Shown one piece after another: positions 14,823 to 64,000 of a stretch of DNA of 64,000 nt. The notes under the pieces are model-generated. The model was not told where the DNA came from and made no database searches. It was given only the letters and a program-made list of their open reading frames with translations. The position numbers and the translations under genes were made by a program. The stretch lies in assembly GCA_019096065.1 (NCBI GenBank), contig JAGUCH010000004.1, forward strand, positions 2,976,001 through 3,040,000, in the 5' to 3' direction. This DNA is from Paracyclopina nana (taxonomy: Eukaryota > Arthropoda > Copepoda > Cyclopoida > Cyclopettidae). Every line of letters starts with the position of its first letter. Position 1 is the stretch's first letter.

Positions 14823-14875
14823 CTTTATCTGGCTAAAATTATGGTTAAAGTCCTATACATAGCATGCAATTATCA

Positions 14876-14962: not shown

Positions 14963-16125
14963 AACTTTTTTGGGATTTGCATTACTTCCATGGAATATGA
15001 GGGGCATTAAATTACTTAAAATCCCTCAAATTTGATTCAAGGGCAGTTAAGTATTTAATATCCCCCAAATTGCTTAGAAAGAACTGTGATATAAAAGAGC
15101 TGAGTCGGATCGGTAAACTGAATTATAACACGAGGAAATCGTATTACAGTATATAAAAGTTTCAACAATATCCAAATAGATCACCTTGTATTCTAGATCT
15201 TCTGGTAACGCATAATGATAAGCAAACTTTTAATCTTAAGGGCCTTTCCATGTGCTTGTACAAAAGATAAAACTCAAAAACGGTTTTTGATGGTATAAAA
15301 AATTGGTCTTTGGCAAGTAGCAAAAGAAGTAAACAAATAAGTAAACATCCAGAACGCAAAAAGTAAACAAAAATGTAAATAAACAATGAAAATGGTTTAG
15401 CAAAAAACGGTTTTGCTTGGTACATTTTTGTGTACCTCAAAACCATAAGTGAGCACATGGAAAGGTCCTAAATGGCTGCATCCTTGCATCCATCACTCCA
15501 CCTGTGCGAGAAAATGAGCTGTCATCTTGTTCACTTAAAACCAAATTAGACCAATCAAACCGCAGAATGAAATGCTTTTACTTCATCAGCCAAGTTAAAG
15601 TGTTGTTTAAAGTTTAATATTAGTTCTTATAGGCTGACCAATTAATACAGTGATATTAAAAATTGGCAATTCTGATTGGCTAAAAAGAAAATAACACAGC
15701 CAGCTCGTAGTTACCAGATTGTTTGCTGACTTTTGGCTTCTTTTTTAGCAAAAAATGCCGTTTGACCATACCAGATCAATTTTATAATCTGGAAACTTTG
15801 CACAAAATCTCGACTTTTCCTTCCCGTATTAGAGGATAACTGCAGGGTCTCGAGCGCTAACGCGCTCTCGACCCTAAAAAAGAATTATCATTTTTTCTTT
15901 TCTTTTTGCCTGTTATTTATTATACAGTCTGTACTCGTCCGTTCAATATTGGACGGTGTGGGAATCTAAACTTGGGGTTTCATAATCCAGAAATACTCAT
16001 TGGAAAGCTGGAGCCTTTTCCCATCTTTTTTGTCAAAATAGAAAAAAATACTTAAAATTCAGACTGTATATTATTAATAATGGATTAATAATCCAAGTAC
16101 TTTTGGTTGTCCCATAATTTAATAG

Positions 16126-16281
16126 TCGCGCATGTCGCGCATTTTAGTAGTCGCGCATGTCGCGCATTTTAGCAGTTAGTAGCGCATGTCGCGCATTTTA
16201 GTAGTCGCGCATGTCGCGCATTTTAGTAGTTTGTCGCGCATGTCGCGCTTGTCGCGCATGTCGCGCATTTTAGTATATCCC
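16126..16281 (-). repeat. Right terminal inverted repeat array of the Mutator-like element
   Basis: Longer than the left array: GTCGCGCATGTCGCGCATTT-type units repeated with TTAGTAG spacers, ending TATATCCC at 16281. It pairs with 13849-13970. Confidence 0.8.
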
Positions 16282-17045
16282 CTTTTGGGAAACTCTATAA
16301 AAATTACACAAGCAAAATTATCTCAATCTCTTATGTTGGAGGCAGCTGCCATGGTAAAAGCGCATCATTTATGCGAGCAAGCTTGCTCACTGGGTTATCA
16401 GTGTGGCTACAAATTATTGAGGTAGCAGAAATGACATGCCACTCTGCATGCTGTCTGTGAGTGATGTGATGTAACTTGAGTATCCTTATGAGTTTCAGCC
16501 AAAGCGCCAAACAAATGGCACTTTTTGGTAAGTGTTATTGCTGCCTATGAAAGTTGGATCTGGTCACACTGTAAAAGTCACGACTTTTGGCAGTGAGCAT
16601 ATTTTTTTAAGGCATACACACGAATGAAATCCACCTTAAGAGTCTACACTTGTCATGATCAATGACTAGGAATGGAAAACTAAAATTAGCCAAAATTGGC
16701 CATTTGTTGCTAAAAATCATGATTTGGGGACAATCTTTAGACGAAAGTGGCTTTTCTGTCACTTTTTCAGAAATTTAGAGGTTGATTTCGAACCCCGTTT
16801 GATCACAACAACAGCATCGAACTCGAAGTCTCCAACTAGCCAGAGCAGCAAATGAAAAGCCCAGTTGCCAAGCTGCCTCTCCTAACCCACTACTAGTTCA
16901 TCGAGCTGTTCAAAGTTCATGCCAGTAGCGACGTCTAATCACATAAAAGGGATTAAAAACAACTGAAATTGGTAGCAAGAATTTTCCGTCAAATTGCGTG
17001 AGTCATAACAACCGAGAAAAATGAACTAAGTGAGAAAGCACAGTG
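16282..17045. other. Upstream region of the HECT ligase gene
   Basis: No coding region recognised. It begins with the right-hand target duplication of the transposon and runs to the ATG at 17046, so it probably contains promoter and 5'UTR of the HECT gene. The transposon end lies only about 760 bp from the start codon. Confidence 0.4.
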
Positions 17046-20563
<3,518 letters not shown>

Positions 20564-22342: not shown

Positions 22343-22571
22343 ATGGCTAATAAGTTAACCATCATTTTACTAATTGCATCTTGGAGCGTGATTAGCTTTG
22401 GTTGCAAATCTAAACCCGGACCATCAAACGACGACCATGACAACACGAGGCCGGTCCTTGAGGCTCCAGCCTTTACAACTGAAATTCCACTTAATTCACA
22501 AGATTCCACATCTAAAGTGGTTGATAACCAAGACGTAACTACTTCTTATTATGCAACAGCTAGCATGGCGA

Positions 22572-22891
22572 TGTTCGAGTAATCACGAGAAGAATCCAAT
22601 AATCGGTCAATGCAAGGCTCTGGTGAGCGAATCCGGACTGGCTGATCCCAAGATCGAGTGGAATGCTAACAGAATGTCTGTAAATGCTAATGTAGCTCGA
22701 TTGGAATCACACTGAATAAACGTAGTCAAAATCTAGAGATCGAAAATAAGATGACTTTTATTGTCGATCGTACGAAATCTAGAATGCAACTGAATAAAAA
22801 GCGGGAAAAAGATGACAGTTTGACAGCTATTTTCCGCTTGGCTCAGCTTGTTGTTGTCGGTGCGTCGCATCTTGAGTACCATGTCTTCACA
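22572..22891 (-). repeat. 3' LTR of the BEL/Pao element
   Basis: 320 bp; the same sequence as 33029-33348. On the minus strand it begins TGTGAAGACATGG and ends CTCGAACA. It directly abuts the split host codon at 22571. Confidence 0.95.
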
Positions 22892-22903
22892 GTCCCCCTT
22901 GCG
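22892..22903 (-). promoter_or_regulatory. Polypurine tract
   Basis: Minus strand reads CGCAAGGGGGAC directly before the 3' LTR. A short purine run of this kind is the expected plus-strand primer site; only AAGGGGGA is pure purine, so it is brief. Confidence 0.6.
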
Positions 22904-23020
22904 ACCGTCGCAACTTAGCTAGCTGAGCGATAATGATCATACTAATGAATTTAACGATTTAATTATGTACAATGAATTTTCTTCTTAAGAGGAGTATCTC
23001 CCTCTGCCTTTGTAGTCTTC

Positions 23021-23926
23021 TTACTGTCTTCTGTGTTTGTCGATCCTCCTGAAAGTCATGCCGTCCCTCTCCTTGATCGCTTTAAACTTGGCATTTCTAT
23101 CCAATGTGACCGCGCCAACTGCATGTCTGTATGCCACAACTCGTTTTTTGACGTGTAGTTGCACCAAGTCTCTTGACATGTGCATTTGTTGCGAGTGACC
23201 ATAATCACCGCAAAGCGTGCATCTGACCGTGTAGAAAGTGCATGCATCAGTCTTGTGCGCGGTACCAAAGCAATTCAAGCAGTGCAATTGTTCGTCGCAG
23301 TCTTTTTCTTTGTGGTCATTTTTCCCGCACTTGCGACAAGGGTGAGGCGTTTCAAGCCTCATCCCTTGTTCCATCGCTTCTGGGGCCGCCATTGCTCGTT
23401 CAATTGCGTCATGTACTACCCCCGGTGCGTGCCAATTTTCTAAATAGCTGACCATGTCTGTTTCAATCTCCGATACTTCTTTTTGTTCTTCGCTCTTCAG
23501 GTACCATTTTTGTAGTTGAAACTCCTTGTCAAAATCTCTGAAGTTTTCAACCACTGTTTTTTCTGTGTTGTACTTGACGTTCGTGTATTTTAATCCTTGT
23601 AATCCATCGTCCACTTTCGTCCCCCGAGGGCGTCCGTGGCCCTCTAGGAGCGCTTCGTAGACTCTTATTGGCTGACCACCAAACTTGAAGGGTCGATCTC
23701 TTAATTGGGCGAGCCAAAACATCATGTAACCTCGGCAATCTGACTTTTCATCTCCACCTACTCGCAAGACTGAGCTGGCTGCCACGAGTTCCAAGCATGC
23801 CAATGGCGTGAACAGATCTTGTCTATCGTAGTAGAGAATCTTTTCTTCGTATTTGTCCACATCGATCGCTCTGTGTTCGATCCTGTAGTCGACTTTCTGG
23901 ATCTTGTTTTCAACCCCCATTATCAT
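23021..23926 (-). CDS. Element ORF3: exonuclease motif III plus three zinc knuckles
   Basis: About 301 residues from the ATG at 23926. The N-terminus contains YYDRQD in a helix-like context (ILYYDRQDLFTPLACLELV), matching motif III (YX3D) of DEDDy 3'-5' exonucleases. The C-terminal third has three knuckles: CRKCGKNDHKEKDC and CLNCFGTAHKTDAC (both CX2CX4HX4C), then CTLCGDYGHSQQMH (CX2CX4HX4H), followed by a basic tail. ORF3 overlaps the end of ORF2 by about 17 nt in the +1 frame. The homologous ORF at 60.85-63.83 kb is continuous across this point, so ORF2 and ORF3 probably make, or once made, one protein. Whether the break is a mutation or programmed frameshifting cannot be told from one copy. 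Confidence 0.75.
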   Translation of the reverse strand: MIMGVENKIQKVDYRIEHRAIDVDKYEEKILYYDRQDLFTPLACLELVAASSVLRVGGDEKSDCRGYMMFWLAQLRDRPFKFGGQPIRVYEALLEGHGRPRGTKVDDGLQGLKYTNVKYNTEKTVVENFRDFDKEFQLQKWYLKSEEQKEVSEIETDMVSYLENWHAPGVVHDAIERAMAAPEAMEQGMRLETPHPCRKCGKNDHKEKDCDEQLHCLNCFGTAHKTDACTFYTVRCTLCGDYGHSQQMHMSRDLVQLHVKKRVVAYRHAVGAVTLDRNAKFKAIKERDGMTFRRIDKHRRQ

Positions 23927-26384
23927 CAACGCACCGTCCTTTCCTGATTTTGGGTTTATAGAGTTCGTTCATCTGTGGGTCCAGCAGCATCACGAGGTGT
24001 TGAGCATCCACCCAATTAGTTACTTTTGCTCCCACTCTGGCGAACTTTCTTAGGTCCATATCGATGCCAAACTGGACCTTGCATATCCTTTTGTCTGCCA
24101 GCAGTCCCTTGAGTCTTTGTGGTATTTCTTTGCCCAATATCTTGTAGCCGACGAACATTACTCTCACGCCGAGCGCGATGCCATTCATTGCCCCGAAGTG
24201 TGCGTAGGCAAATATGTCTCTGTGCTCGCCAACCGTTATTTCCTGGCCCTCGATGTAGGCATTCTTGTATTTTTCTGACATTCCCTCGGTGTCAATTGTC
24301 ATTATCCTCGTGTCCATGATCTCCTTGAAGAAGCCTTTCTCCTCCAGCTTTGCCTCGACCTCTTCCCAGTGTTCTGAGCAATATTCGTTCTTGGTGTCGC
24401 TCGTTCGCCCGAGTATATACGTCACTCTTCTTTTTTGGTCGAAAAGATCATATTTTGTGCCCTTCGCCATTGTGGCATTCCTCAACGCATCCTTAACAGT
24501 CAGTGGTGGGAATATTTCTTCCTGCCTATTGACGCATTCTTCCCTTAAGAACGGATTTGTTGATTGGCACAAATGCGTCTTGCACTTCTTTTTCGTGTAT
24601 CTAGCTGCTTCTGCTGCGCTAATGATCATTCCAAATTCGATGTCTGGGCAATGCTTCGCTGTGAGTTTGGGCTTCTTTTCGTCCTCCATTGGTGGCTTAA
24701 AGTCCGACTTGCCACCCGAGCTCGATCGAGATCTCCTTTTTGGGACGTATATCATGTCTTCCCCTGGGACTTTTTCGTAGTATTCGTCTTCTGCTCCAGC
24801 GGGGATGTAGTTGACTGAACCGGTTGAAGTTGATGATGTTCTTCTTTTTGGTTGTCCTACATCCACTTCCATTGGTTCCAGGCTCGAACGTCCGGGGTCC
24901 GATGCCTTTTGAACCTCGATGATTTTTTCGATGGTCTTTATGACGACTTTTTCTCTTACTGGCATCATGTCGTCAGGCGTTTGTTCAGCTTTGTCTTCGA
25001 TGTGAATCATCTTAACATTTTTGCCTTCCAATTTGCACGCCTCCTTTAGCCAATCCAGGGCTTCCTGCAAGCTTTCTCTTGTCCAGATCCTGAAGCCTTT
25101 CCTCACCGCTGCTAATTGTTTGACCTCCTCGTTTGTCAGGACATTTGCAGTTCTTCTGAGGTACAGGGTGTTCGAATTTCTACCATCATTGAGTACTTTG
25201 GCGATCTCAGGCATTGGTGCCATGCCTTTTCCGCTTTCAATGGCCTTAAACAGCTCCCTTACTTCAATACCCGAATCCATCGATCCCATTGCCTCTTGTT
25301 CCAGTATTTGCCTCGCAGCTAGGAATTGCAATCTATCTTCGTCTTCCAGAACATTTTGCGGTGGGTATTTGCCATACTTGTCCACCGTTCTGACGTACTG
25401 GGGCCCGTGTGAGATAAGCATCGCCTCGTTTGGAGGTACGCCATGATAGAGCTGAATTGCTCTTATTAGGGCCTTCAAGAGATCGATCTTCTGTGCTTTT
25501 CTCCTGTTGCTATTGGGCATGTGCAGTTTTTCGTTTCTTGGTCCGAAATTCAACGTGCTACCTAGGATTATTGTGCCTGGATCATGATAGTACCTTTCAA
25601 AGATCTCTCGCATTTGCTCCGTATCGTAGTCATCGTAGATGACGACTCTGGCCCCAGTTCGCTCCTCCCATCGTCTGATCACCTCATCCAGTGGTGGATC
25701 CGGTGGCTGGTGCTCTGCTCTAGGGCTTGTTTCTTCCTGACTGCTGTCCGACGTGATCCTTGGTCCGAGCCGTGCCTTGAGTTTGGGCGTCAAGCGTCCG
25801 GGGCTTGATCGCTCAATCTTAGGCGTTCGTGCCTCATTTGATGTTGAGGCGCTCTTCTCGCGACTTCTTTTGTTGGCATTTTCGGCAATTTTTCGCTCCT
25901 TTTCTCTCCGCTCGGCCTCACGTCTTCTTTCTTCTTCCCTCTGGATGTCCCCAGATCTTGATCGATCCAGTCTCCTTCTTGCGTCCTTTTCCCTGGAGTT
26001 ACTTCGGCTCCTTCCTCGGCGATCTCGTCCCGAAGGCATTTCGTTGACTATTAGAACCTCGCCGATTGCTCTTGATACTTTGGCTACGTTGTTTCGCAAA
26101 ATTGAGTTAAATTTTATCACGACTGATTTCAATCTACTCACAATCGTAGTAATTAACCCTCCTCGGCGATGGATGGCGTTTAAAAATGACCTCGGCGAGG
26201 TCAAACTCCTTTTTATCAATTTTGGCGGTTGATTTTCGACGTGTTGTGATTTGACGACTTTTTTGTTTTCTTTTATGACTTCCGGTTTTATTTTGTAGGT
26301 TGCGTGTTTTCTTTCTTTTACTTGGTTATGATTTTTGTTATTGTTAGTGCGATGTGAGTGTTTTTTATTAGGCTTGGTCTTCAT
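23910..26384 (-). CDS. Element ORF2: disordered/RS-rich region plus DEDD 3'-5' exonuclease motifs I and II
   Basis: 824 residues. Residues 1-230 are basic and Arg/Ser/Glu-rich (RSRSNSREKDARRR). A middle region (about 230-480) contains VVIYDDYDTEQMREIF and is colinear with the window-end ORF. From about 600 to the end it resembles the WRN/MUT-7 exonuclease fold: TIDTEGM near residue 695 (motif I, DXE), then KVQFGIDMDLRKF near 768 (motif II, with the KxGxxxDL pattern) and WVDAQHLVMLL, the strand/helix that usually follows. The frame ends before motif III, which lies in ORF3. The start ATG overlaps the Gag-Pol stop by 17 nt. Its position is that of env in env-bearing elements, but I see no signal peptide or transmembrane segment. 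Confidence 0.75.
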   Translation of the reverse strand: MKTKPNKKHSHRTNNNKNHNQVKERKHATYKIKPEVIKENKKVVKSQHVENQPPKLIKRSLTSPRSFLNAIHRRGGLITTIVSRLKSVVIKFNSILRNNVAKVSRAIGEVLIVNEMPSGRDRRGRSRSNSREKDARRRLDRSRSGDIQREEERRREAERREKERKIAENANKRSREKSASTSNEARTPKIERSSPGRLTPKLKARLGPRITSDSSQEETSPRAEHQPPDPPLDEVIRRWEERTGARVVIYDDYDTEQMREIFERYYHDPGTIILGSTLNFGPRNEKLHMPNSNRRKAQKIDLLKALIRAIQLYHGVPPNEAMLISHGPQYVRTVDKYGKYPPQNVLEDEDRLQFLAARQILEQEAMGSMDSGIEVRELFKAIESGKGMAPMPEIAKVLNDGRNSNTLYLRRTANVLTNEEVKQLAAVRKGFRIWTRESLQEALDWLKEACKLEGKNVKMIHIEDKAEQTPDDMMPVREKVVIKTIEKIIEVQKASDPGRSSLEPMEVDVGQPKRRTSSTSTGSVNYIPAGAEDEYYEKVPGEDMIYVPKRRSRSSSGGKSDFKPPMEDEKKPKLTAKHCPDIEFGMIISAAEAARYTKKKCKTHLCQSTNPFLREECVNRQEEIFPPLTVKDALRNATMAKGTKYDLFDQKRRVTYILGRTSDTKNEYCSEHWEEVEAKLEEKGFFKEIMDTRIMTIDTEGMSEKYKNAYIEGQEITVGEHRDIFAYAHFGAMNGIALGVRVMFVGYKILGKEIPQRLKGLLADKRICKVQFGIDMDLRKFARVGAKVTNWVDAQHLVMLLDPQMNELYKPKIRKGRCVDDNGG

Positions 26385-29300
26385 CTTCGATCAGAGGTAG
26401 GTTTTGGCACAGGGCTAATTGCCGTATGCCTCTTTCTAGTAGACCATGCTTGACTGTTCTCACCATCGCTGTTCTAACTTTGCCATCTTCACCAAGTAAA
26501 ATTTTCTCTACAGTTGCAACCTCCCATCTGGGTCTATGTTTTTTCAGGTCTTCAGTGGCGACTACGACTCTGTTACCTACATGTAAGTTTTCTTTTTCGT
26601 TTTGCCATTTAGCCCTAACGTGCATTGTTTGCAGGTAAAAGTCCATCCACGTCTTGTTCATCTTCGTCATGTGATCCGCCAATGCCTTCAACTTGTCCGA
26701 GAACTGTGCTGCCACTCCCATGAAGGCTGACTCGCCCGCTCTTCCACTCACCAGGTGGTTTGGTGTAATGACTTCATAGCCACTTTTTCCTTTCAGCACT
26801 GCTAACGGCTTGTTGTTCAGTCTTTCTTCTGCCATCGCTACCATTGTTCTGAATACTTCGTAGTCATGGGTTCCATGTTCGCAGGCTTCCAAGGCCCGCT
26901 TAACAAGTTTGACGTGACTTTCCACAAGTCCATTCGCTTCATGGTCTCTTGGTGGGTTGAAGTACCACTCTCTAATTTTGTCGCTCACGGTGAGTTGAAC
27001 TTTTTTCCAGTCAATGAATTCAACTTTTTCTTTTTTCCTTTCGTCAGGTATCCTGTTGACTTTGACACCCAGTTTTTCGAATGACCCCTCGTTGTCACTG
27101 TAAATGACACTTATAGGTCCTCTTCTAGCCGTGAGTCTCTGGAGCGCCAATACCAATGCTTCGGTGCTGCGTCCAAGTGTTGCTTCCAAAGTGACCACCT
27201 TTGTTTGCAGGCAAACTGTCACTAGTACATATGCCTTATGCTTCTCCTTGTTCAGCTCGACATAGTAGAACCCTGTGAAATCAACCGCAATTTTGCTACA
27301 CGGTTTGATATTTTCTAGTTCCAGGTCTGGTGCAGGACCCATGATTTGCGTCAGCATCTTCGATCTCCACCTTGTGCACTGTGGGCACTGCATGCTTATT
27401 TTCTTTGCCATCTTCCTCACGTGTGGTCCTCCAAATGTCTCTGTGAGTCGAAGCCACAACTGATCTGCAGATAGGTGTCCGCTAGTGACATGGATTCGCC
27501 ACACGATCAACGCGAAGACCCAAGACTTTTCCATCCAGATGGGGTAGATCCTGCTTTGTGGCAGGTCTTTTTGCTTTGAGTTCCTCGTCAGCAATCGCAA
27601 AACTCCGTCCTCATCGAAGACTGGATTGTGTTTTCTTATTTCCTTTGACTGCCACGTTCCTGTTTTCTCATAATTTGTAATTTCTGATTCCAGCGTTCTC
27701 CACTGCCCCAAAATAATCAGCTCTGTCACTGTTTCTGCGATGAGGTCCAATGGCATCGCGTCCTCCTTTTCTGGTAAGTTTTTCACTCTTGTGATGCCTC
27801 TCACCAAAATTGGCCATCTGTACGCGTTTTCTTTCAATTTAAGTTTCTGCATTCTCTTGTACACTAGCCTTGCCTTCGCTATTCCTACTTCTTTGTTTAG
27901 CACGACTTTGTGGTCCAAGATGCTTCCTTTTTGGTCGCTCTTGATGTTGACGGGGCGTCCGAGGCCCGTTAAGAATATTTTGTCAATGCTTCCGGCCAGT
28001 TCGTCTTCTGTAACTTCCAACTCGTATTTTGGCCACTCTGACTTATCTTTTTTCCAAAAGTCTGGTCCTTTCCAATACTTTTCGTCTTTCAGCAGCTCTG
28101 AGATTGTGCAGCCTCTCGATGCGAGGTCACTAGGATTCTCTAGAGTGTTGATGTAATTCCACTGTTCAAGCACGGTAGTATCGCTAATTTCGATTGTTCT
28201 GTTCCTGATGAAAACTTCTCTTTCCACTCCAGGTTTTCGAATCCAACATATTACTGGTTTGTTGTCAACCCAATAGTGGATGTGCTCTCTCTTTATTTGG
28301 AACATTTCTCTGAGCCGATTTGACAGCCTCGCTGACATCAACGCCCCCGCCAGCTCCACCTTTGGGATCGTGTGTTTCTTTGGCTTTTGTAGCTTTGCTT
28401 TCGTTGTGAGGATGTTAATGTTGCCATTTCCATCATCGACACTCACTGTGCAGCCAAATCCAATGTCTGATCCGTCACTTGAGAAGTGCAGCTCGCAGCC
28501 TTCGGCCTTGGTGGCTACCTTCCGTGGGTAGCTCACTTTTGAAGCTTCTTCCAATTGGCCAACCCATTTTTCGAATCTTTTAAGTGCCTTTTTGACCAGA
28601 TCATTGTCCAATTTTGTGAGATCCGTGTCCCACTTTATTTTCACTTCTTTTTCTGCCATGCAGATCCATTGGAAGCTTTCCCTCCCAAAGATCATGAATG
28701 GCGCTAGGATCCCCAGTGGATCGAAGACTTTATGGAGTTCTGCTAATATTGTTCTTTTCGTAATTTTTTGCAGGTCTGGTTTGACGAACTTGTAGCCAAG
28801 ACGATCCTTTTCAGTGTCCCAGCTGATTCCAAGCGTGGAGTGTAACACTTGTCCTCCTTCACTTCCTTCCAATGTCAACGATTTCTCCTGGAATTCTTCA
28901 GGTATGCTATCCATTACAGCTTTTGAATTGGACACAAACTTTCTCAGTTTCATCCCACATTGTTCCAGCAACGACGTCGCTTCCTTCGTGACTCTAATTG
29001 CTGTCTCTTCATCTGGAAAGGCCACCAACATATCGTCCATGTAGATTTGGATGTGCTCCCTGAGTTCCTGGCTGCCAAATCTGTTTAGGTGGTGTTTCAC
29101 CACGAAGTTGGCCACGCTTGGCGCAGCTCTGAGTCCAAACGGCCACCTTTTGAATTGGTAAGCTTCGCCAAACACCCAGATGCGCAGGTACTTTCGGTCT
29201 TTAGGGGGTACTCCAATCATGAGATACATTTTCTCAATATCTGCTGCCACTGCCACCTCACCAAACCTGAATTTAACCAGTACATCAAATATATCCTCGA

Positions 29301-32300
29301 GAAAGTTTGGTCCCGTGTATTGGCAATCATTTATGCTCACACCGTCAAACTTCTGTGCCGCGTTATAGACGAACCTAAACTTTGTTGTTAAGCTTGATCG
29401 TTTTGCGACACAAAAGAAAGTCAACCAAAAACCGTGCCTCTGCTCATTTATTGGGACTTTTTCAATAATGTCCTTTTCAAGATACTCAGCCATAGTCTTC
29501 TGCACCGCATCATGTACTTCCTTATCCGCCTTGTGTGTCATATCTATTCCAGCCTGGATCCTCTTCGCCTTTTCCCAGTTTTCAGGCAAGTTTGGGGGAT
29601 CTTCAATCCAAACAACGTCGACCACGTAATGTCCATTTTCATCTTGGTGAATTGATTCCTGCATCTTCTTTAGTGCGATCTCATCTGCTAGTGTCAGCCT
29701 TTTTGACCTCGATTCGTCTCTATCGATTCCTAAGGCCTCGATTCCGTTGCTTCGATCGACTATGAACTGCAGTTCGCTATCTTTTAGGGCCATTCCAGCG
29801 TTGAATTGTCCCCAATCACTCACCATCATCGCCACTTCGTGTCCCCCCGTCTTGGGATGGTAAAGCATTGTCCATCCAAGCGGTGTTTTTCTGACTAATG
29901 GCCCGTTATGGACATAAATGTCTTGGATGCTTCTCATCAGGTGCAGGTTATCGAAGCCCAGGAGCATTCTCACTGGTCCTTCGACTGGCTGCGGAAAGTT
30001 GATTTTGCTAATTTCCTTGTAGCTGACTTTGATGTCATTCGGGTCCACTGGCTCAATTGCTGCTGGAAGTCCAAATGTTTTTGCTTTCAGCTTGAACCAT
30101 TTTCTTCCTCCTCTGGCCCTAACAAACACTTCCGTTTGGTATGACTTTCTTTTTATCACGTCTCCGTCTCCAACTACATGAACTTTCAGCATTTCTTCTT
30201 TTCCTTGCAGCTCCAAATCGTCTTTTAGTTTAGGGTCGATGATGGTCAAGCTTGAGCCCTCATCCAGGACCATGTTTATTGGTAGGAACGTTTCAAAGTC
30301 GCTCGTGGCAGCTATTTCTATTGGCAAGGTTCTCCAAGACTTGGTGTCACTCGCTGTTAGAGCGATGACGTCGGGGCTGTCTAGGATCTGACTTCCGTGG
30401 TCCGATTCCTCTGTGTTAGCCTTGTTGCTGGGTTGACGTCCGAGGTCACCTCCAGTGAAAGCTACTGCTTCTTTTGACAGTTGATCCAGTTTCTTCTCGA
30501 GGGCTGGCAACCTAGCCAATCTCTGCTCGATGCTCGCAAGCAGTGCTGCTGTCACATCGCCTTCAGATGCTCTTCTCGCGTTGTTGACGTGCAGCTTGCT
30601 ATGATGATCGCTTGCTCCGCACTTGATGCAGTTTTCTCTGGCCTTGCAGTTTTCTACTGAATGCTTTCCTCTGATGCATTTGAAACAAATTCCTGCTCCG
30701 ACCAGTTTTTTCTTGATTTCTGGTATGGTGTAATTTTCCCAACTTTCACACTTCAAGGCTTTGTGATCGTGAACACCACATACTACGCACGGGTCTTTTT
30801 GTTTGTGCGCCCCCAAGAAAACTGCATCATCGTCGTCGCCGTCACTATCCTCATCCGAGCTTGCTGAGTATATTTCGTTGACTGCCATGACTACCTCTTT
30901 TCCCCTCTTGTTGTAGAACTTGACGTACTTTTGGCTTGTTCTCTTTCCATACTCAGTCTGGCCTCCATAGCTTCCCACATGGCTCTCCGATGGCAACTTG
31001 CTTTTCAAGGCTTCCCTAGTATTTCTGGCCTTCATCTCGCTCATTCCTTCCTGAGTTCTTTCTCTTGCCCACGTGAAGAACAACCTCAATGAGTTCTTTG
31101 ATTGGAATTTTGCGATCCTGAATGCATTGTAGTCTTGTTTTGTATCCGGTGTCATCTTGATCATTCCTAACAGGTGATCCTCGCCATCCTTTGGATTCTT
31201 TCCGGATCTGATATTGAGGTCGACCATTTCTTCCAAGATATTCACCATATCACCGATCGTGTTTGGTGCTTTCACATCCACTTGTGGCATTCTTGCCAAA
31301 TGCAGCATTTGCTTTGACAGTTGTTCTGCTGCCTCCCCGTGGTTGCTACCATATTGTGCATCCAACGCTTTGAGCGCTTTCACCAGCCCCAATCTGCTGC
31401 AGTCATACCTGCCAATTTTTCTGTAAGCCTGCCCGCCAGTCCATGCTTTCAGTGTTGCCATCTTGTCGAACCAATCCATATTCTTCTTTTTGATGATCTT
31501 CGCGTGAACCAGTTCTTTGAAGGCCCTGTACTTGGCCGGGTCTTCGCCATCATAGTAGCCCTTCATGTTATCCCTCACGGTGTCTGCTGCAGCAGTGACA
31601 TCGTAATATTGCGTCAAGTTTTTGCCATTATAGAGGTCTGACCAATCAACTTCATTTGACACGTAGTCTTCCCAATCATCCAGGACGGTGTCCTTTGCCA
31701 GATATGTCTCTTCCAGGGTCAGTTTGTCCTTGTAGTCAGCTCTTGTGATATTTGCTGACTGCTGCCATGTTGGTGTTCCCGGAATTTGACTGTAATTTCC
31801 GAACTTTGGCGTCTCAGCTGCAGCTCCCGATGGAGTTGAAAAGTTAGGGTCACCAGGGTATTTGAACATCCTGCCCCTGGCTCCTCCTCTACCCCTTCCA
31901 GCGGTTCTTCCCTTCGGGTTATTGATGAATTCCATGCTGCTAGCCGCCTGTCTTTTTTCCGTAACCATTGCCTGCAAATCCACGTCCTCTCCTCGTGATC
32001 TAGCCTCTCTCAGCTGCTTTTCTGCTTCTGCCCTCTTTGCTTCCGCATCTTGAGCCTTGGCTACCAAGGCCTCGTGCTCAACTTTTGATGCGCTGCGAGC
32101 TGCCATGGCTAGGTCATTGATTCTCTCTGACATCTCATAATGCTCTGTGACCCAATCGATGAGATAGTTTTCTTCGTCATCATCATCTTCATCACCACCC
32201 GCCGTCTGATTGGCATCTTGCATGGTGACGTCCTTATTTTCTTCCTTTTCTTCCTCTCGGAGCATTTCTTCGAACTCCTTTTGCTCTTTCTTTTTGTGAT

Positions 32301-32898
32301 TCTTTTCCGCGAGGTACTCCACAGCGTTGGCTTCTTTCATGAGAGGTTCTACGCTTTCTGCCTTGAATTTTGCGACTACTTGTGCGTCTTCTCCCTTGAT
32401 GCCCTCCAATAATCTTGCTGCCTCGGTGGCAATCTCCATTTTTAACGAATTTGCCCGCCTCGCGATCATCTTGAGCTTTCTCGCTGGCTTGTCCGTGCTA
32501 ATTTCTTTTTTGATCGCCTCCAGGTTCGAGTAGTACTCCGACGCGTCGACTTTCCATCTCTCCACCATTGTGGCCGGCGAAACCTTGACTAGTTCTTTTA
32601 TGGTTGCCTCCATTTCCACGCTGGTATTCGCTGCCATGTCCTCCAGGATTCTAATGCTCCCGGTGGACTCCGTTGAGTCCTCCCTGAATCTATTGAGGTC
32701 CTCTCTAATTTCTACCCTGGAGCTGTTGATGGTGGTATCGTTAAATCCCCACCTTTTGTCTGGTCTTTTCGGAGATTTCTGCTTGTACGCTACTCCACGC
32801 CCCAACGTTCTCTTCCCTCCAACTGAATAACCCTGTAACCAGCCTGGGGGTTTTCTGATTCTTTTTGGTCTTTCCTCTTTCTTGTCCTTGTCAGACAT
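26368..32898 (-). CDS. BEL/Pao Gag-Pol polyprotein (Gag, protease, RT, RNase H, integrase)
   Basis: One uninterrupted 2176-residue frame. Gag carries CX2C zinc knuckles at about 700-765 (CVVCGVHDHKALKC, CFKCIRGKHSVENC, CIKCGASDHHSKLH). The aspartic protease motif is VLDEGSSLTIID near 875. The reverse transcriptase catalytic motif is IYMDDML near 1284, and RNase H has HFSSDGSDIGFG near 1470. The integrase has an HHCC zinc module (HVTSGHLSADQ ... CPQCTRW, about 1800-1840) and DDE core segments VDFTG, YSDNEGSFE (about 1932) and HEANGLVESHVKLVKRA. A C-terminal DUF5641-like block (HRPRWEVATVEKI, near 2120) is diagnostic for BEL/Pao. No internal stop, so it looks translation-competent. Confidence 0.96.
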   Translation of the reverse strand: MSDKDKKEERPKRIRKPPGWLQGYSVGGKRTLGRGVAYKQKSPKRPDKRWGFNDTTINSSRVEIREDLNRFREDSTESTGSIRILEDMAANTSVEMEATIKELVKVSPATMVERWKVDASEYYSNLEAIKKEISTDKPARKLKMIARRANSLKMEIATEAARLLEGIKGEDAQVVAKFKAESVEPLMKEANAVEYLAEKNHKKKEQKEFEEMLREEEKEENKDVTMQDANQTAGGDEDDDDEENYLIDWVTEHYEMSERINDLAMAARSASKVEHEALVAKAQDAEAKRAEAEKQLREARSRGEDVDLQAMVTEKRQAASSMEFINNPKGRTAGRGRGGARGRMFKYPGDPNFSTPSGAAAETPKFGNYSQIPGTPTWQQSANITRADYKDKLTLEETYLAKDTVLDDWEDYVSNEVDWSDLYNGKNLTQYYDVTAAADTVRDNMKGYYDGEDPAKYRAFKELVHAKIIKKKNMDWFDKMATLKAWTGGQAYRKIGRYDCSRLGLVKALKALDAQYGSNHGEAAEQLSKQMLHLARMPQVDVKAPNTIGDMVNILEEMVDLNIRSGKNPKDGEDHLLGMIKMTPDTKQDYNAFRIAKFQSKNSLRLFFTWARERTQEGMSEMKARNTREALKSKLPSESHVGSYGGQTEYGKRTSQKYVKFYNKRGKEVVMAVNEIYSASSDEDSDGDDDDAVFLGAHKQKDPCVVCGVHDHKALKCESWENYTIPEIKKKLVGAGICFKCIRGKHSVENCKARENCIKCGASDHHSKLHVNNARRASEGDVTAALLASIEQRLARLPALEKKLDQLSKEAVAFTGGDLGRQPSNKANTEESDHGSQILDSPDVIALTASDTKSWRTLPIEIAATSDFETFLPINMVLDEGSSLTIIDPKLKDDLELQGKEEMLKVHVVGDGDVIKRKSYQTEVFVRARGGRKWFKLKAKTFGLPAAIEPVDPNDIKVSYKEISKINFPQPVEGPVRMLLGFDNLHLMRSIQDIYVHNGPLVRKTPLGWTMLYHPKTGGHEVAMMVSDWGQFNAGMALKDSELQFIVDRSNGIEALGIDRDESRSKRLTLADEIALKKMQESIHQDENGHYVVDVVWIEDPPNLPENWEKAKRIQAGIDMTHKADKEVHDAVQKTMAEYLEKDIIEKVPINEQRHGFWLTFFCVAKRSSLTTKFRFVYNAAQKFDGVSINDCQYTGPNFLEDIFDVLVKFRFGEVAVAADIEKMYLMIGVPPKDRKYLRIWVFGEAYQFKRWPFGLRAAPSVANFVVKHHLNRFGSQELREHIQIYMDDMLVAFPDEETAIRVTKEATSLLEQCGMKLRKFVSNSKAVMDSIPEEFQEKSLTLEGSEGGQVLHSTLGISWDTEKDRLGYKFVKPDLQKITKRTILAELHKVFDPLGILAPFMIFGRESFQWICMAEKEVKIKWDTDLTKLDNDLVKKALKRFEKWVGQLEEASKVSYPRKVATKAEGCELHFSSDGSDIGFGCTVSVDDGNGNINILTTKAKLQKPKKHTIPKVELAGALMSARLSNRLREMFQIKREHIHYWVDNKPVICWIRKPGVEREVFIRNRTIEISDTTVLEQWNYINTLENPSDLASRGCTISELLKDEKYWKGPDFWKKDKSEWPKYELEVTEDELAGSIDKIFLTGLGRPVNIKSDQKGSILDHKVVLNKEVGIAKARLVYKRMQKLKLKENAYRWPILVRGITRVKNLPEKEDAMPLDLIAETVTELIILGQWRTLESEITNYEKTGTWQSKEIRKHNPVFDEDGVLRLLTRNSKQKDLPQSRIYPIWMEKSWVFALIVWRIHVTSGHLSADQLWLRLTETFGGPHVRKMAKKISMQCPQCTRWRSKMLTQIMGPAPDLELENIKPCSKIAVDFTGFYYVELNKEKHKAYVLVTVCLQTKVVTLEATLGRSTEALVLALQRLTARRGPISVIYSDNEGSFEKLGVKVNRIPDERKKEKVEFIDWKKVQLTVSDKIREWYFNPPRDHEANGLVESHVKLVKRALEACEHGTHDYEVFRTMVAMAEERLNNKPLAVLKGKSGYEVITPNHLVSGRAGESAFMGVAAQFSDKLKALADHMTKMNKTWMDFYLQTMHVRAKWQNEKENLHVGNRVVVATEDLKKHRPRWEVATVEKILLGEDGKVRTAMVRTVKHGLLERGIRQLALCQNLPLIEDEDQA

Positions 32899-33016
32899 CC
32901 GTCTCAGGCGTTCGTGGCCTTCTGACTATCTTTGTCTTGACTTGTCAGGTCCCCCCGACTGGGCGAGTCTCCCCGACTTGACAGTCGGCTTCTTGTTCTC
33001 CTTATGTGAGTTTACC

Positions 33017-33028
33017 CGTTGGGCGCCA
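33017..33028 (-). promoter_or_regulatory. Primer-binding site, lysine tRNA (CTT) type
   Basis: Directly adjacent to the 5' LTR, the minus strand reads TGGCGCCCAACG. This 12-nt run is complementary to the CGTTGGGCGCCA 3' end typical of animal tRNA-Lys(CTT). Complementarity stops after 12 nt. Confidence 0.75.
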
Positions 33029-33348
33029 TGTTCGAGTAATCACGAGAAGAATCCAATAATCGGTCAATGCAAGGCTCTGGTGAGCGAATCCGGACTGGCT
33101 GATCCCAAGATCGAGTGGAATGCTAACAGAATGTCTGTAAATGCTAATGTAGCTCGATTGGAATCACACTGAATAAACGTAGTCAAAATCTAGAGATCGA
33201 AAATAAGATGACTTTTATTGTCGATCGTACGAAATCTAGAATGCAACTGAATAAAAAGCGGGAAAAAGATGACAGTTTGACAGCTATTTTCCGCTTGGCT
33301 CAGCTTGTTGTTGTCGGTGCGTCGCATCTTGAGTACCATGTCTTCACA
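33029..33348 (-). repeat. 5' LTR of the BEL/Pao element
   Basis: 320 bp, reading identically to 22572-22891. It should hold the promoter for leftward transcription; I did not identify a clear TATA box. Confidence 0.95.
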
Positions 33349-33614
33349 GGCGAGTGCTAATGAGCATTCTACAGAGCTGGCTACCAAAACAGGTATATTA
33401 GTCAACGTACCAAGAATAAAAGTACTATACTCGTATGAGCAATATTTTCTCGCTAGGAAATGAAACTGCATTGTTTGGTGCCATAGAAGAAAGATTTTTG
33501 CGTCCTATCAGATGTGGTGACCCTCATTGCATCGGTGATAATGGAGCTTCCCTACCCAAATGCAATTACTACTGCCTCATTTATTTGATGCTATTAGGGG
33601 CTTTTATGCTTTAA

Positions 33615-58300: not shown

Positions 58301-60851
58301 GAGACTTCACGCTGCTACAACTGATTTGAGTCGTGATCGAAATTCGGTATTGGTGCCCTCACCGTGGTACGCGGCCTCTAATTAGCAATTTTGGTGCGAG
58401 TAATTAGTTTCCTCAATAATTGTTGTAAGGAGTCCTTCTCCGGATGCCGGATGGGAGCGCTTGTACTGACGCCTATGATGTGTCAACGATTGACAAGCCT
58501 TTTTTCAAGGATTAGCCTTGCTTCCCTTTGGTCACGAGCTTTATATGAGCGTTGTCGGAATGTCATTTTTTAGCGAGGAAACCCAAGATTGTCGTGGGAG
58601 TCCCATTATTATTATTATTGTATTATAAAGCGCGCGACATTCACTTTTGCTGCAGTGACACTTCCTCGTGTAATAAATCCTGTGTGTTTTCATCAAACGG
58701 AGCTTGGTCAGAATTTACGATAGGTATTGCTCATGAATATCAGCCTGACATTTAGAGCGAATGCCCTGAAAACCGCCGCTGCTCTATCAAAAGATTGCTT
58801 TCCGCAAAATTGAAAGGAGGATGTTTAAAAATGCCATCAGCAGCAATAGCTCATAATTTTTGGCTTGCAGCACGCGCGGTCATGAATACATAAAGCTGGG
58901 ATCAAAAATGTTTCCTGATTGAAATCTATATGTAGCAAATAACCTATAATACCTAGATTAACAATTTTTTGTTTCAACTTTTAGGTGCACTAGCAAACAA
59001 CCGGTGGGCCCGATTCCTAATTTTAATGGTTTGTTGTGAAGGAATGTATACTACCGAGCCACGAAGGAAGTTGTCGGTTTTCAAGCCAGGTAATTTTTTT
59101 ACTCGATTCTTTTTCCGCAGATTTAATGACATGACCAGGGGGGTCTCGTAAGTGAGTTCTTGACGCAAGTTTTGCATGCTAAAATCACCAAATCTGTTTG
59201 TCTTAGCCTAGGTGGCGCTAGTAGTTCTTACTACATAGCGCGTGAGCTTAAGTGATGTGTCAGTCATGGAAGCAAGCGGGCTAATCTCACGCGTCTTCAA
59301 AAGAGCTCCTAGATAAGTTCTGTATTTTTTAAAAAAGTATGCAATTTGGGCACTTTTTGATAATTTAAGGCAGGTTATGGAAATTTTTGGAAGTGAAATC
59401 CACAGAATTATATTTAAATTTTGTCTTGAAGCCTACCACAGCTCAGTCAGACTGTGTGCTATAGTACAGCAGCGACAAGAACTCACCTTATTACTATAGA
59501 TCATCTTGGACATGACAAATACTCCGCAGGGGTTTTGAATTAAAAGCAGCGTTTGTGACCAAACTTCATTGTCTTAAGAGTAACAGTAGTTCTGTCCACA
59601 AAAAGATTGTCCTTTTTTTTTACATAAATATGACATTTTACTGGCAGCGCCATCACCATCATTATTCACCTTTTTTGGGACGCAAACATTCAAGGTGAAA
59701 ATGTAAATTCGCAGAGCCCCTCGACGCGCAGAAAAAGTTAAACAAGTAAAGCCAACAGCTGCGTTGAGGTCGTTGCAACAAAATTAAGGCGTTATCCAAC
59801 TGAGATCCCACTTAATTGTTTCAATCTTTTAATTAAATGTGTCAATTTGGGCAGACGGGATATTGATTGACTCGTCTAACGATCCATGAAGCTTCTGGAG
59901 CAAAAGAAGTAGGCGAATTAGATAATCAGCTTGTTACATCTTTGGGCGTTGGTCCACTTTTCGATTCGGCGTTTAATCTATTTCTAGGTTTCAATGTCAG
60001 CAGCAGCAAAGTTTTCTTCCGAGAATGGCAATTTGTGTCTTGTTTGACATTTTCGAGACGTCCTACCCTCCAAACATTGCCATGCCTCAATAGGTGAAGA
60101 AGGAAGTGAGAAGGCATTTTTTCATCATTTTCAAGCCTGCATTCTCCACATCAGGGAAAATTCGAAAAGCTCAGGTAAATCTCGTTTTCTCAAAACTAAT
60201 TGATGGCAAGGATCATTTTTAATTAAGCCTGACCTTTGATGCGAGTTTGTTCTTTCCAATCTTGCATGATGCAGTGGAGCACAACAATGCTTAGTAAATT
60301 ATGTCTGTTGTTTCCCAAGCTAGTATCCAAGTTGGGTGGCCAATTCCAAATTTCATCCATAAAACAGCAACAAAGGGCTAACAATATTCATTGTGCTACA
60401 TAAACTTTATATGCATGTGGGCCCCCTTCTTTTTCATCGCAGTATACTTAAAATGCAACCCTTGAAATGCTCTTATTGTAGTTTGCGGTGCAAAAATCAA
60501 GGATTTTGCGGGCTAGTAATTGGGTGAAAATTCCAATCGCACCAAATCTGGACGTAGAGCTGCAGTAGCTTGACCGTGACAAGCATTTTGTGGGGCAGAA
60601 CGACCAATAAAACCTTCCCACCTAGCAAAATCCCACGAATTGATATCACACTTATTGACTTTGCAGATATCTTTTTGATCGGGATTTTAGTCCTAAATCC
60701 TTACGTTGATTGACGCGAAAGACTCGAATGACAACGACATGAAAATACATATGAAATATAAGGAGATACAAAATATACGTGTGTTATATTCTAGTGTTGA
60801 TGATGAACTGACTCTTTTGTTTACATATTCATGACGTCATAGCGTACAATT
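55350..60851. other. 5.5 kb without a recognised gene
   Basis: Contains the promoter side of the VWDE/Kunitz gene and the 3' flank of the ORF at 60852. A minus-strand stretch around 57575-57450 has an acceptor (CTTTGCAG/GACGTGC), an open 38-codon block (CSEFSYIRAENVKHESDLEF...) and a donor (TTC/GTATGT), so it could be a single small exon, but no partner exons or family were found. TGACGTCA palindromes occur near 55863 and 60832. Otherwise featureless AT-rich DNA. Confidence 0.4.
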
Positions 60852-63833
60852 TTAATCATTTTCTCCCTCCTCACGAGGCTGAGGCCTGGGGAACCGATCG
60901 GGCAGGTGAGCTCTGGCAGCCACGACCTCGGCCCGCGCAACAGTGAGCCTGTCTCCCATGAATTGGGCCTTGTAGTGGGGAAGTCGTCGGCGTTCTTCTA
61001 CTTCAGCTTGCTTCCACAGAAACATTCCCCTACGCTTGAATCGATTGTAATGGTATTCAATGACCATATTCTTGTTGTGGAGACGACTAGTGATGCGACC
61101 CATTGGTGCCGAGGCCCAGAACTCCTCAAGCAAGGACGGGAAAGGCCGTTCGCCATGATGCGAGGGCTCGTGACCGAGGCGATGGCAGAGCGTGCATCTC
61201 TGGTGTAGAACGGGGCACACTTGTTCGGCGTGACCAAGTTCCTGACAATATTGGCACTGGAGCGTTTGAGGATCCAGAGGGCAGTCTGGAGTTGCGTGGT
61301 CTTCAACTCCACAAGTTTGGCAACAGTGTGGAAACATCTTGCCGTGCCCTGCAGCGTTAAACATGTATTGTCGTCGGTCCACGAGGTCCACGTCCACGCC
61401 ATAATATTTCGTGATCGACTCCTTGCGCAGCCTGCTAATCATGTCTGAATTGCGAGACCAACGTCTCACAATTGCAATAGACTTGAAAGCATTAATGACT
61501 TGAGTCGGTTCCGCAAATTGTGCCACCGTTAAGAAGTACAGGGGCCACGCCTTGTGCTGCTGATAATTGCCAGTCGCTGTGTCAAAGTAGAAGTCGCGCT
61601 CGAACCAGTCGCCGAATGGTCTTACTCTTTGCTCGGGTACATTGACCGCAGATTCCAGCACCGCCCCAATATTGGCGCATTGGATGGCAAAACAATGCAT
61701 CATCCTGATGATGTCCGCGTTCGCCCCGAACAATTCAATTTGAGCCGCCCGCAGTGCCATTTGCCTCATCAATTCGAAAATGATCGCCGACTCCCACATA
61801 ACGCGCACTTTCATAGCAGTGGTCCATTCGCGAAATCTTAGCGAGTAACGGTGCTCGACATCGTGGATTTGGTTCCTACTTCTGCGCATATCTCGAGAAA
61901 ATTGTAGCGGAGCTTGTAGCTGCTCTGCCAAAAAATGAGGATCAGTCCTAATTTGTTGCCAATCACGGCCGCACTCGACCTGCGGATACGCCATCAGGAC
62001 AAGATTTCGCGCTTCCACGGTCGGTTTGATGAGATAATTTGTTCGCGGGAGGGTATTAATTCGCCTTACTGTCTCCTGGATGTCGAAGCCAATCTTGAAT
62101 ATACCTCTGCTTCGTAGTAGTTTGAGGATTATCTCTGGGACGCCAATTCCATTAATATTTCTGCCATCCCACAGGACATGGATTACCACGACGATGTTGT
62201 TGAGCGACACGAGCGAGATTCCAGCGAAGGCGTTCTTCCATGTTTCTGGGCAGATATTTTTCATCAATTCCAGTTCGTCTTTCGCTGGATTTAAAAGGTT
62301 GATTCCCAGCAAGCCGAATCCAAAAGCCTCGTCAACAAATTGCTTTGTCATCTGCTTGAACCTCGTCTCACAAACGCCCTTTGCCCAGTGAATGATGTTT
62401 GGGGCTCGATCAGGGTCGAGTACTCGTGGCCCATGACGCATAGTTTGAAGTCTCGCAGCCACCGTGGTGATCGTCAGGAATTCAGGCTTCCAGGGACTAT
62501 CGTCAAAGTCAATCTGACGAACGGTGTTACCGGACAAAAAACAATATTTAATGGGGCAATCAGGATCATGAGCTTCGCCGATAATAAATCGCGCCCCATC
62601 ATTAGCCAACACGCATATTTCTTCCGTTTCAGGCTCAGCTGCCGCCTGACTCGCTACATTCGATTCTGCGTCCGAGAACAAATCTTGATCCCCAAGTTCT
62701 AGCTCAATTTCCGCGTCGCTATCAAGCCTCTGACGTTTAGACGAAATAGTGGATGAAGCGCGCGATATTGGACTTACACTCGGCCCTACATTAGATGGGC
62801 CTGGCAGACCCGGTAAGGCTGCCGACTGGGGAGCTAGAGTTGAGGCAGGAACTTCATCCGGTGTCGGCTCTGATGATGGCGTACTTTGGGAGACGAACCT
62901 TGCCGCGCGTCCCATCATGATGACGCCCTCATCCGTATTGTCTGGCGATAGCTGGAGATCGGTGAAGCCTTCCACCTCAAGTCGAGCCTGAGCAAGTTGC
63001 TGTTGCGCCAGCAGCACAACATCTTTACTCAAGACTACAACATTTGATGAGTCTGTCGAGGTGGAGCGATTTGCAGTATTGTAGATGCGATCATTTCCCC
63101 GGGTCAAGTTTTCAGTGACTCCCTTTTGTCTCTCAGCCAGAGTGGGTTGTCGTCCAAGTTCCACAGGCGTATCCACTGCGACTCGAAGTGCTCCCGCAGT
63201 TGGAGGTTTGATTCTAGCCATTACATGCCGCATGAAGCTCATCGAGGCTGGATCTTGAGCCGCCAGAAGATGTCCCAAATCTTGATAAGCGACATCGTTC
63301 AGTCGTTGAGCCGCGGATTCAGCTGCTTTGGCGATGTCCGGTCCAGGTTTTCCTAATCTGGGATCATTGTCAAACTTTTTACAAGCTTTCACCCATAAAT
63401 CGAAGATTGCGGGGTGGCAAAGGACCATGATCTTGGTCACTGCAGCATCCTCAGCCAGCAAGGTTACCCGAGTGAAATTTGTACGTTGTTCATGATTCTT
63501 GGTGTTCTTCGCCGCCCGATCGGTTTTTTCAGTCCGCCTTAATTGGCGAATATAGCTTCGGATTGAGCCTGCCACGAACACGTCGGGACTAGAGTAGAGC
63601 TGAGCGGCATTGTCAAAGTCTCCAACTTCCAACATCCGATCGAAGTCTTCGTAAAACGCCACTTCCTCCACCGCGAAATGCTCGGCAATCCTGCTCCGTT
63701 CATCGTCGACCAGCCTGCGGACTTCGTCGTCGTCCAAGTCAAGCTTCTCCGACTTGACTGCCGTCTCCATTGTGGGCGTTGGAGGTGCGTTCGGATCCAC
63801 GATCACAGACTTTCTTCGCCGTTTACCAGTCAT
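60852..63833 (-). CDS. Intronless homologue of the BEL element's ORF2+ORF3 (degenerate exonuclease plus three zinc knuckles)
   Basis: From the ATG at 63833 (MTGKRRRKSVIVDPNAPPTP) it encodes about 993 residues; the frame is also open upstream to 63992. It is colinear with the retrotransposon's ORF2+ORF3: VAFYEDFDRMLEV pairs with VVIYDDYDTEQM, LGHLLAAQDPASMSFMR with LQFLAARQILEQEAMGSM, and FKIGFDIQETVRRI with VQFGIDMDLRKF. The three knuckles CQTCGVEDHATPDC, CQYCQELGHAEQVC and CTLCHRLGHEPSHH have the same order and the same odd CX2CX4HX4H third member. The exonuclease signature is lost: motif I DXE reads NLL (LLGINLLNP) and motif III YX3D is absent in KVRVMWESAI. No LTR, RT or integrase is seen nearby. 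It may be a remnant of another element or a host gene derived from one. Confidence 0.75.
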   Translation of the reverse strand: MTGKRRRKSVIVDPNAPPTPTMETAVKSEKLDLDDDEVRRLVDDERSRIAEHFAVEEVAFYEDFDRMLEVGDFDNAAQLYSSPDVFVAGSIRSYIRQLRRTEKTDRAAKNTKNHEQRTNFTRVTLLAEDAAVTKIMVLCHPAIFDLWVKACKKFDNDPRLGKPGPDIAKAAESAAQRLNDVAYQDLGHLLAAQDPASMSFMRHVMARIKPPTAGALRVAVDTPVELGRQPTLAERQKGVTENLTRGNDRIYNTANRSTSTDSSNVVVLSKDVVLLAQQQLAQARLEVEGFTDLQLSPDNTDEGVIMMGRAARFVSQSTPSSEPTPDEVPASTLAPQSAALPGLPGPSNVGPSVSPISRASSTISSKRQRLDSDAEIELELGDQDLFSDAESNVASQAAAEPETEEICVLANDGARFIIGEAHDPDCPIKYCFLSGNTVRQIDFDDSPWKPEFLTITTVAARLQTMRHGPRVLDPDRAPNIIHWAKGVCETRFKQMTKQFVDEAFGFGLLGINLLNPAKDELELMKNICPETWKNAFAGISLVSLNNIVVVIHVLWDGRNINGIGVPEIILKLLRSRGIFKIGFDIQETVRRINTLPRTNYLIKPTVEARNLVLMAYPQVECGRDWQQIRTDPHFLAEQLQAPLQFSRDMRRSRNQIHDVEHRYSLRFREWTTAMKVRVMWESAIIFELMRQMALRAAQIELFGANADIIRMMHCFAIQCANIGAVLESAVNVPEQRVRPFGDWFERDFYFDTATGNYQQHKAWPLYFLTVAQFAEPTQVINAFKSIAIVRRWSRNSDMISRLRKESITKYYGVDVDLVDRRQYMFNAAGHGKMFPHCCQTCGVEDHATPDCPLDPQTLQCQYCQELGHAEQVCPVLHQRCTLCHRLGHEPSHHGERPFPSLLEEFWASAPMGRITSRLHNKNMVIEYHYNRFKRRGMFLWKQAEVEERRRLPHYKAQFMGDRLTVARAEVVAARAHLPDRFPRPQPREEGEND

Positions 63834-63902
63834 TTTTTGGCCGGCTTCGACAGTTGATCGCCGGAAATAAGGATCGGAAGTCGACCAGCTAACACTGTTG
63901 CT

Positions 63903-63948
63903 GATTGGTGAATTTTTACTATAGAGTCGTACACGCGTTTTGATTGGT
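63903..63948 (-). promoter_or_regulatory. Paired CCAAT boxes upstream of the 60.85-63.83 kb ORF
   Basis: On the minus strand two ACCAATC motifs (RC of gattggt at 63903-63909 and 63942-63948) lie about 70 and 110 bp upstream of the ATG. CCAAT pairs are common in Pol II promoters; this suggests the ORF has its own promoter, but the motif is short and could be chance. Confidence 0.35.
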
Positions 63949-64000
63949 CCTCGTCTACAACGGAATTTTTGCAATGGGAGGTACGCGCGCAACCTTCCCT

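Follow-up and report, generated by a model that had tools for sequence, protein, structure and literature searches.

BEL/Pao retrotransposons of the copepod Paracyclopina nana carry, behind pol, an accessory gene that combines a DEDDy exonuclease-like domain with an array of three zinc knuckles. We describe this module from a window of 64,000 nt (the whole stretch of DNA analysed; contig JAGUCH010000004.1, forward-strand positions 2,976,001-3,040,000), in which a complete BEL/Pao element, hereafter element 1, occupies positions 22572-33349 of the minus strand, and from searches of the genome assembly (92 Mb, 10 contigs). The module exists as such, recurs throughout this genome and, to judge from phylogenetic trees, is old. 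We read it as an old, separate accessory cistron immediately behind pol whose product would bind nucleic acids by means of its DEDDy domain and zinc array, and would act as an exonuclease in one clade and as a binder in the sister lineages; we give this reading a probability of about 0.6.

In element 1 the gene is distributed over two open reading frames (ORFs) of the minus strand. ORF2 (824 aa, 23910..26384), the first part, has an Arg-rich N-terminus followed by exonuclease motifs I (TIDTEGM, residues D699 and E701) and II (KVQFGIDMDLRKF, residue D777), and ORF3 (302 aa, 23021..23929), the second part in another frame, has motif III (YYDRQD; Y34 and D38, at 23816-23830 by sequence reading) and the CCHC-CCHC-CCHH array (23180..23338; knuckle starts 23338, 23281 and 23221 in a motif scan). 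The Pfam family PF01612 (DNA_pol_A_exo1) matches residues 687-805 of ORF2 (23970..24326), including D699, E701 and D777, with E 2e-5 and 24.9 bits, above the curated cut-off of 23.6. A first-pass annotation of this DNA had proposed a DEDD exonuclease-like, triple-knuckle protein in the envelope (env) position of a BEL/Pao element, and the proposal is borne out by the ORFs and motifs, with their coordinates and strand, by the PF01612 match and by a Pol of BEL/Pao type.

The same annotation treated ORF2 and ORF3 as separate frames. Both are present, but compared with their relatives they are pieces of one gene and not two genes, because intact relatives have one frame across the junction: in 23 of the 27 relatives L002-L028 a single open frame of at least 1030 aa spans it, for example in a copy of 1129 aa with 89% identity and both halves in the same frame. 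A programmed frameshift as the cause of the two ORFs is rejected on the same count. The two frames overlap by 59 nt (ORF2 stop counted); the interrupted loci are L001 (the window copy), L007, L008 and L026, and L023 is short. Broken in the middle of the domain despite the identical long terminal repeats (LTRs) of its element, the window copy probably yields no active enzyme, and the break may be a real mutation or an assembly error. The ATG of the accessory gene lies 16 nt ahead of the end of the Pol stop in element 1, and the distance from Pol stop to accessory ATG ranges from -75 to +184 in uninterrupted loci of other clades. Arg-Ser/Glu/Asp dipeptides reach 23-30 per 100 aa at the N-terminus of the window copy, where ORF2 has up to 23, and of all 13 rows L002-L006 and L009-L016, and 6-15 per 100 aa in the other 11 rows.

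At least 163 distinct places in the genome have the module after four protein searches were merged, each of which scores best candidates only; broken and partial places are included, and every census entry is the main match of its place, further pieces of the same place being excluded. The first-pass annotation had named a lack of these ORFs in other copies of the element, i.e. a one-off capture, as an outcome that would speak against it; other copies do carry the module, so that a one-off capture is not what we see. Among the 150 Peptidase_A17 matches listed, 103 are followed on the same strand by a module within 8 kb (about 0.7% expected by chance), with the wrong order in one case and the opposite strand in two, and the other 47 have no match to the four module queries. 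Integrase/DUF5641 sequences lie upstream of the module in all 36 loci checked (28 + 8). The third gene of an LTR element is commonly taken for env; in this single genome, at least 163 places have a third gene that is most probably something else. One pair of near-identical copies, L013 and L014 (G000 C9:5655153-5672972), lies on one strand about 10.7 kb apart, perhaps as tandem elements with a common LTR.

The module falls into two classes, in which the zinc array is fixed and the catalytic residues are not. We aligned 40 module regions, leaving out the broken or short copies L001 (the main copy of the window), L007, L008, L023 and L026, and later added eight rows, which entered no tree and no profile; L014 was dropped from one alignment (A4). 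All 12 zinc ligands are invariant in all 48 aligned copies. The five catalytic positions D-E-D-Y-D are kept together in 25 of the 48 and in none of the remaining 23; the same number of rows (25/48) has DxE, D and Yx3D in order, and the window copy has them split over its two frames. These 25 copies, the most divergent of which share about 26-30% identity with the window copy, form what we call the active class. Although the class is defined by the five residues themselves, a 40-row tree calculated without those five columns places the 25 copies on one side of a single branch (100/100), and this support is therefore independent of the definition. In the second class, presumably inactive as judged from the residues alone, the replacements are varied and some rows retain part of the set (e.g. 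A-E-D-Y-H in L063 and H-T-D-Y-E in L029), as would be expected of erosion from a catalytic ancestor. Pfam gives no informative match on second-class domains. Their domain is a real homologue, because the profiles of 24 first-class and 15 second-class rows match over 221 columns with a probability of 99.8% and E 3.7e-29. A function based on catalysis alone, as implied by the first-pass annotation, finds no support here: in the second class the domain and the array persist and the full catalytic set is missing.

The window contains one copy of each class. The second is a divergent accessory ORF (L045) of another BEL/Pao element, 1046 aa long and open to the window edge (60855..63992, minus strand), which keeps the zinc array and has N, L, T, R and E at the DEDDy positions. 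Its domain core aligns with ORF2 at a local score of 82 (shuffle mean 27.2) and its knuckles with ORF3 at 119 (shuffle mean 30.1), in both cases with 0 of 1000 shuffles as high; the linker (ORF3 residues 1-190 against residues 701-885 of the second copy) has no alignable similarity, 944 of 1000 shuffles scoring as high. Integrase/DUF5641 lies just upstream of this copy and Peptidase_A17 farther upstream. The 3' LTR of the element (60675..60858, minus strand) is identical in 184 of 184 bases to its partner outside the window (G000:C4:3046233-3046416), its exact limits being open to a shift by one base, and at about 184 bp it is slightly below the 0.2-1.2 kb range of BEL/Pao. The element (60675-64000, minus strand) continues past the window edge, and its 3' LTR overlaps the end of the module ORF.

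Trees of Pol (35 rows) and of the module (40 rows), both without an inferred root and with a long-branch warning from treekit, each separate the active and inactive classes by one branch (100/100) and share their main subclades. The simplest reading of these trees would be a single old acquisition that was passed down with Pol. Ratios of nonsynonymous to synonymous substitution rates (dN/dS, Nei-Gojobori) are low in the active class: a finite ratio was obtained for 12 pairs, and it is 0.03-0.09 for 11 of them; in the remaining one, the near-identical L013/L014, the ratio of 0.28 is based on almost no changes.

Profile-level comparisons, and the conserved motifs in their proper order, point to a DnaQ/RNase H-like fold for the accessory domain. 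PF01612 matches the isolated domains of 15 of 24 relatives at E<=0.01, and exceeds its cut-off in ORF2 and, with 25.3 bits, in L004. A profile search of solved structures gave seven matches at E<=1, and four of the top five are entries for WRN or EXD2 exonucleases, the fifth being an 'ancestor of diDNase'. In a comparison with host domains (four of five fetched were used) the closest is EXD2-like, with 16.2 bits against at most 1.2 for the others. The relationship to MUT-7 suggested by the first-pass annotation finds no support in these searches, in which the closest proteins are WRN, EXD2 and the EXD2-like host domain, MUT-7 itself lying outside the comparison. Single-sequence searches of solved structures returned no informative match, two weak matches to effector proteins being taken as chance, and searches of 5.8 billion proteins found no relative, to which we attach little weight given their uncertain coverage of animal proteins.

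Several results count against the reading given at the outset. Full-length ORFs match PF01612 below its cut-off or not at all in six of six tested: within the active class L002 reaches E 2e-4, L009, L017 and L028 reach E 0.02-0.07 and L021 has no match (0/5 above cut-off), and the second window copy at full length has no match. Searched genome-wide, PF01612 finds only two module places, the window and L004. The best matches among solved structures are weak (WRN exonuclease E 0.017, EXD2 E 0.025), and those of the class profiles to the four host domains are marginal (active class: probability 21%, E 0.001; inactive class: 9%, E 0.0036), compared with E 0.08 for the best-scoring of 30 shuffled versions of the active-class profile. 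An AlphaFold2 model of ORF2 residues 600-824, which is without motif III and was based on a two-row alignment, is unusable at a predicted local distance difference test score (pLDDT) of 31. The trees disagree on how the second class is joined: the module tree sets L029, L031 and L032 nearest to the active class (90/84), and the Pol tree groups L029 and L031 with L041 and L042 (91/89), neither branch being starred. Finally, synonymous distances are mostly saturated: 8 of the 20 pairs, including all five second-class pairs, give no finite value, and the finite ones except L013/L014 lie at 1.2-4.0.

In the reading we nevertheless prefer, of which fold, binding, catalysis, substrate and benefit are what we infer, the product would bind nucleic acids and consist of a DEDDy domain of the DnaQ/RNase H-like type with the array of three knuckles behind it. 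Within the active clade, which includes the main element of the window, it would most likely be a working metal-dependent 3'-5' exonuclease, held by the knuckles on RNA or single-stranded complementary DNA (cDNA) and trimming or degrading 3' ends to the benefit of the element; the sister lineages would have lost the active site, and their protein would most likely be a binder. The array is constant and catalysis is variable, which suggests that the common job is most likely nucleic-acid binding and that trimming was kept in one clade. Candidate substrates are the 3' ends of element RNA, single-stranded cDNA and host small RNAs. The Arg-rich N-terminus is found in some rows only and for this reason is placed outside the common mechanism.

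Invariant zinc ligands beside a catalytic set that is complete in only 25 of 48 copies would also suit a second nucleocapsid-like chaperone, which would use the array, and a DEDD fold in a structural role, to package or remodel the RNA of the element; catalysis would be dispensable and the residues kept in one clade for other reasons. Gag of element 1 (30586-30789, minus strand) also has a CCHC-CCHC-CCHH array, with which that of ORF3 aligns at a score of 71 (shuffle mean 29.9, 0/1000 as high) and that of the second copy at 44 (14/1000 shuffles as high), and it is possible that the accessory array derives from a duplication of the Gag array of the element. The joint retention of five residues in 25 copies that diverge as far as stated above is difficult to account for unless members of that clade are catalytic, and we regard a chaperone as unlikely, if worth keeping in view. 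An envelope-like protein in disguise, serving cell-to-cell transfer, would fit the env position of the module, and among belpaovirids there are some with an env-like gene to which no function has been assigned (PMC8742986). Such a protein is very improbable: in a plain scan without a membrane predictor, 19-residue hydropathy peaks do not exceed 1.6 in 23 of 25 rows, the higher peaks (1.72 in L028, 2.02 in the second window copy) fall by position in the exonuclease-like region, and a Pfam scan of the proteins of element 1 returned no envelope family. The idea of a host gene captured just once, or of a resemblance due to chance, to which the weak scores of single matches might lend some colour, is rejected with hardly any reservation in view of the 163 places, the agreement of the trees, the low dN/dS and the invariance of the zinc ligands.

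The protein might serve counter-defence, by binding, trimming or sequestering PIWI-interacting RNAs (piRNAs) or small interfering RNAs (siRNAs) of the host, the two classes cutting or binding the same target. This is a special case allowed by our preferred explanation, and catalytic and non-catalytic classes with one common array would fit it. Parallels are metazoan Maelstrom, a piRNA factor with a DEDD fold that lacks catalysis and binds RNA (PMC4408791), and the arenaviral ExoN, which contributes to the suppression of innate immunity (PMC7968707). However, elements with a mut-7-like silencing activity would limit themselves and lose out (Rodriguez et al., PMC5408684), and no match to the Maelstrom family turned up in Pfam scans of the module proteins, its ECHC site itself not having been looked for. 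We consider counter-defence doubtful, and more pointedly so a Maelstrom-like 'active-site switch', by which an ancient Pol-inherited family would trim host small RNAs or their precursors in one clade and bind them in others as a lasting counter-defence.

The concept of an element-borne DEDDy ORF3 is already known, together with the mut-7 idea, from LTR elements of bdelloid rotifers: Juno and Vesta acquired such ORFs at least twice (Rodriguez, Kenefick and Arkhipova 2017, PMC5408684), and both 3'-end processing and a mut-7-like role have been discussed for them, which takes away the novelty implied by the first-pass annotation. Compared by description only, these elements resemble ours in having an ORF after pol with an RNase D-like DEDDy domain, the invariant residues of which are said to be intact, and, in Vesta2 and Vesta5, a zinc motif. 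They differ in that their motif is given as DEED and their ORF3 is shared with Penelope-like elements, whereas our module belongs to BEL/Pao, has D-E-D-Y-D, follows Pol subclades and, besides its fixed array of three knuckles, comes with a large sister class that looks non-catalytic. A DnaQ-like exonuclease is listed among known accessory domains of LTR elements in a review (PMC6338049). The word 'exonuclease' is absent from the available text of the BEL/Pao survey of 2011 (PMC3118150) and of a paper on Daphnia LTR elements (PMC2996953), and the literature within reach, with supplements, subscription journals and preprints outside its scope, holds no recognisable report of such a gene in BEL/Pao. 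Our data add to this the occurrence in BEL/Pao, the constancy of the zinc array and a split into presumed active enzyme and pseudoenzyme as in Maelstrom.

Maelstrom is the best functional parallel, being likewise a family with catalytic and dead members (catalytic in an amoeba, RNA-binding and dead in animals), a DEDD fold and zinc-binding residues (PMC4408791, PMC2628886). It differs in being a host piRNA protein and in binding zinc through ECHC residues of the domain, as opposed to the separate knuckle array of the module. The ExoN of nidoviruses and arenaviruses is DnaQ-like as well, has zinc fingers and is held to be hijacked from cells, but belongs to RNA viruses and has other zinc sites (PMC7968707). 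The parallel between our two classes and a host piRNA protein gives the split a wider interest, and the natural occurrence of catalytic-looking and dead-looking versions makes the role of element-borne DEDDy proteins testable by comparison. EXD2 and WRN exonuclease (PF01612), which provide the top matches of the module among solved structures, an EXD2-like domain also being the best of the four host domains, are cellular proteins, and the similarity is weak (E 0.017 and up). We know of no knuckle array in EXD2 or WRN, and to our knowledge the viral ExoN is not of the tyrosine (DEDDy) type.

Element 1 itself is a young BEL/Pao insertion with two identical LTRs. All of its features lie on the minus strand: the 5' LTR (33029..33349, 321 bp, TG...CA), the 3' LTR (22572..22892, TG...CA, matching the 5' LTR in 321 of 321 bases), a putative primer-binding site from 33028 downward (TGGCGCCCAACGGG), a putative polypurine tract at about 22893-22903, just outside the 3' LTR by sequence reading, and a Gag-Pol ORF of 2176 aa (26368..32898), identified as BEL/Pao by Pfam and motif scans; the flanks are a target duplication GGCGA (22567-22571 and 33350-33354). 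Peptidase_A17, RVT_1 and DUF5641 are above the Pfam cut-off in Gag-Pol, and rve, Integrase_H2C2 and Asp_protease_2 match below it; three knuckles of its own start at 30789, 30687 and 30630 (motif scan). A Pao-type Pol with Peptidase_A17, reverse transcriptase, integrase (by its matches below cut-off) and DUF5641, LTRs within 0.2-1.2 kb with TG...CA ends and a short target duplication, and the order gag, pol, third gene are common to element 1 and BEL/Pao (Belpaoviridae, Semotivirus). The Belpaoviridae profile of the International Committee on Taxonomy of Viruses (ICTV) gives gag and pol, joined in some members by an env-like gene, and does not mention an exonuclease (PMC8742986), and the exonuclease-like accessory gene of element 1 departs from this set.

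Beyond the two elements, host ORFs at 17043-20563 (plus strand) end about 2 kb before element 1. They resemble the C2, WW and HECT segments of what we take to be a Nedd4-type gene, and an ORF at 38405-39592 (minus strand) is presumably a malate synthase, an enzyme with a patchy distribution among animals. A large host ORF at 6128-9664 (plus strand) has a low-complexity stretch of EEAPQ-like repeats. In the genome TTAGG, the arthropod-type telomere repeat, has 9278 matches and TTAGGC none, which speaks against a nematode host. An inverted repeat at 13871-16268, with arms of 105 nt that are 91% complementary and 2.2 kb apart, is perhaps a DNA transposon or a foldback element.

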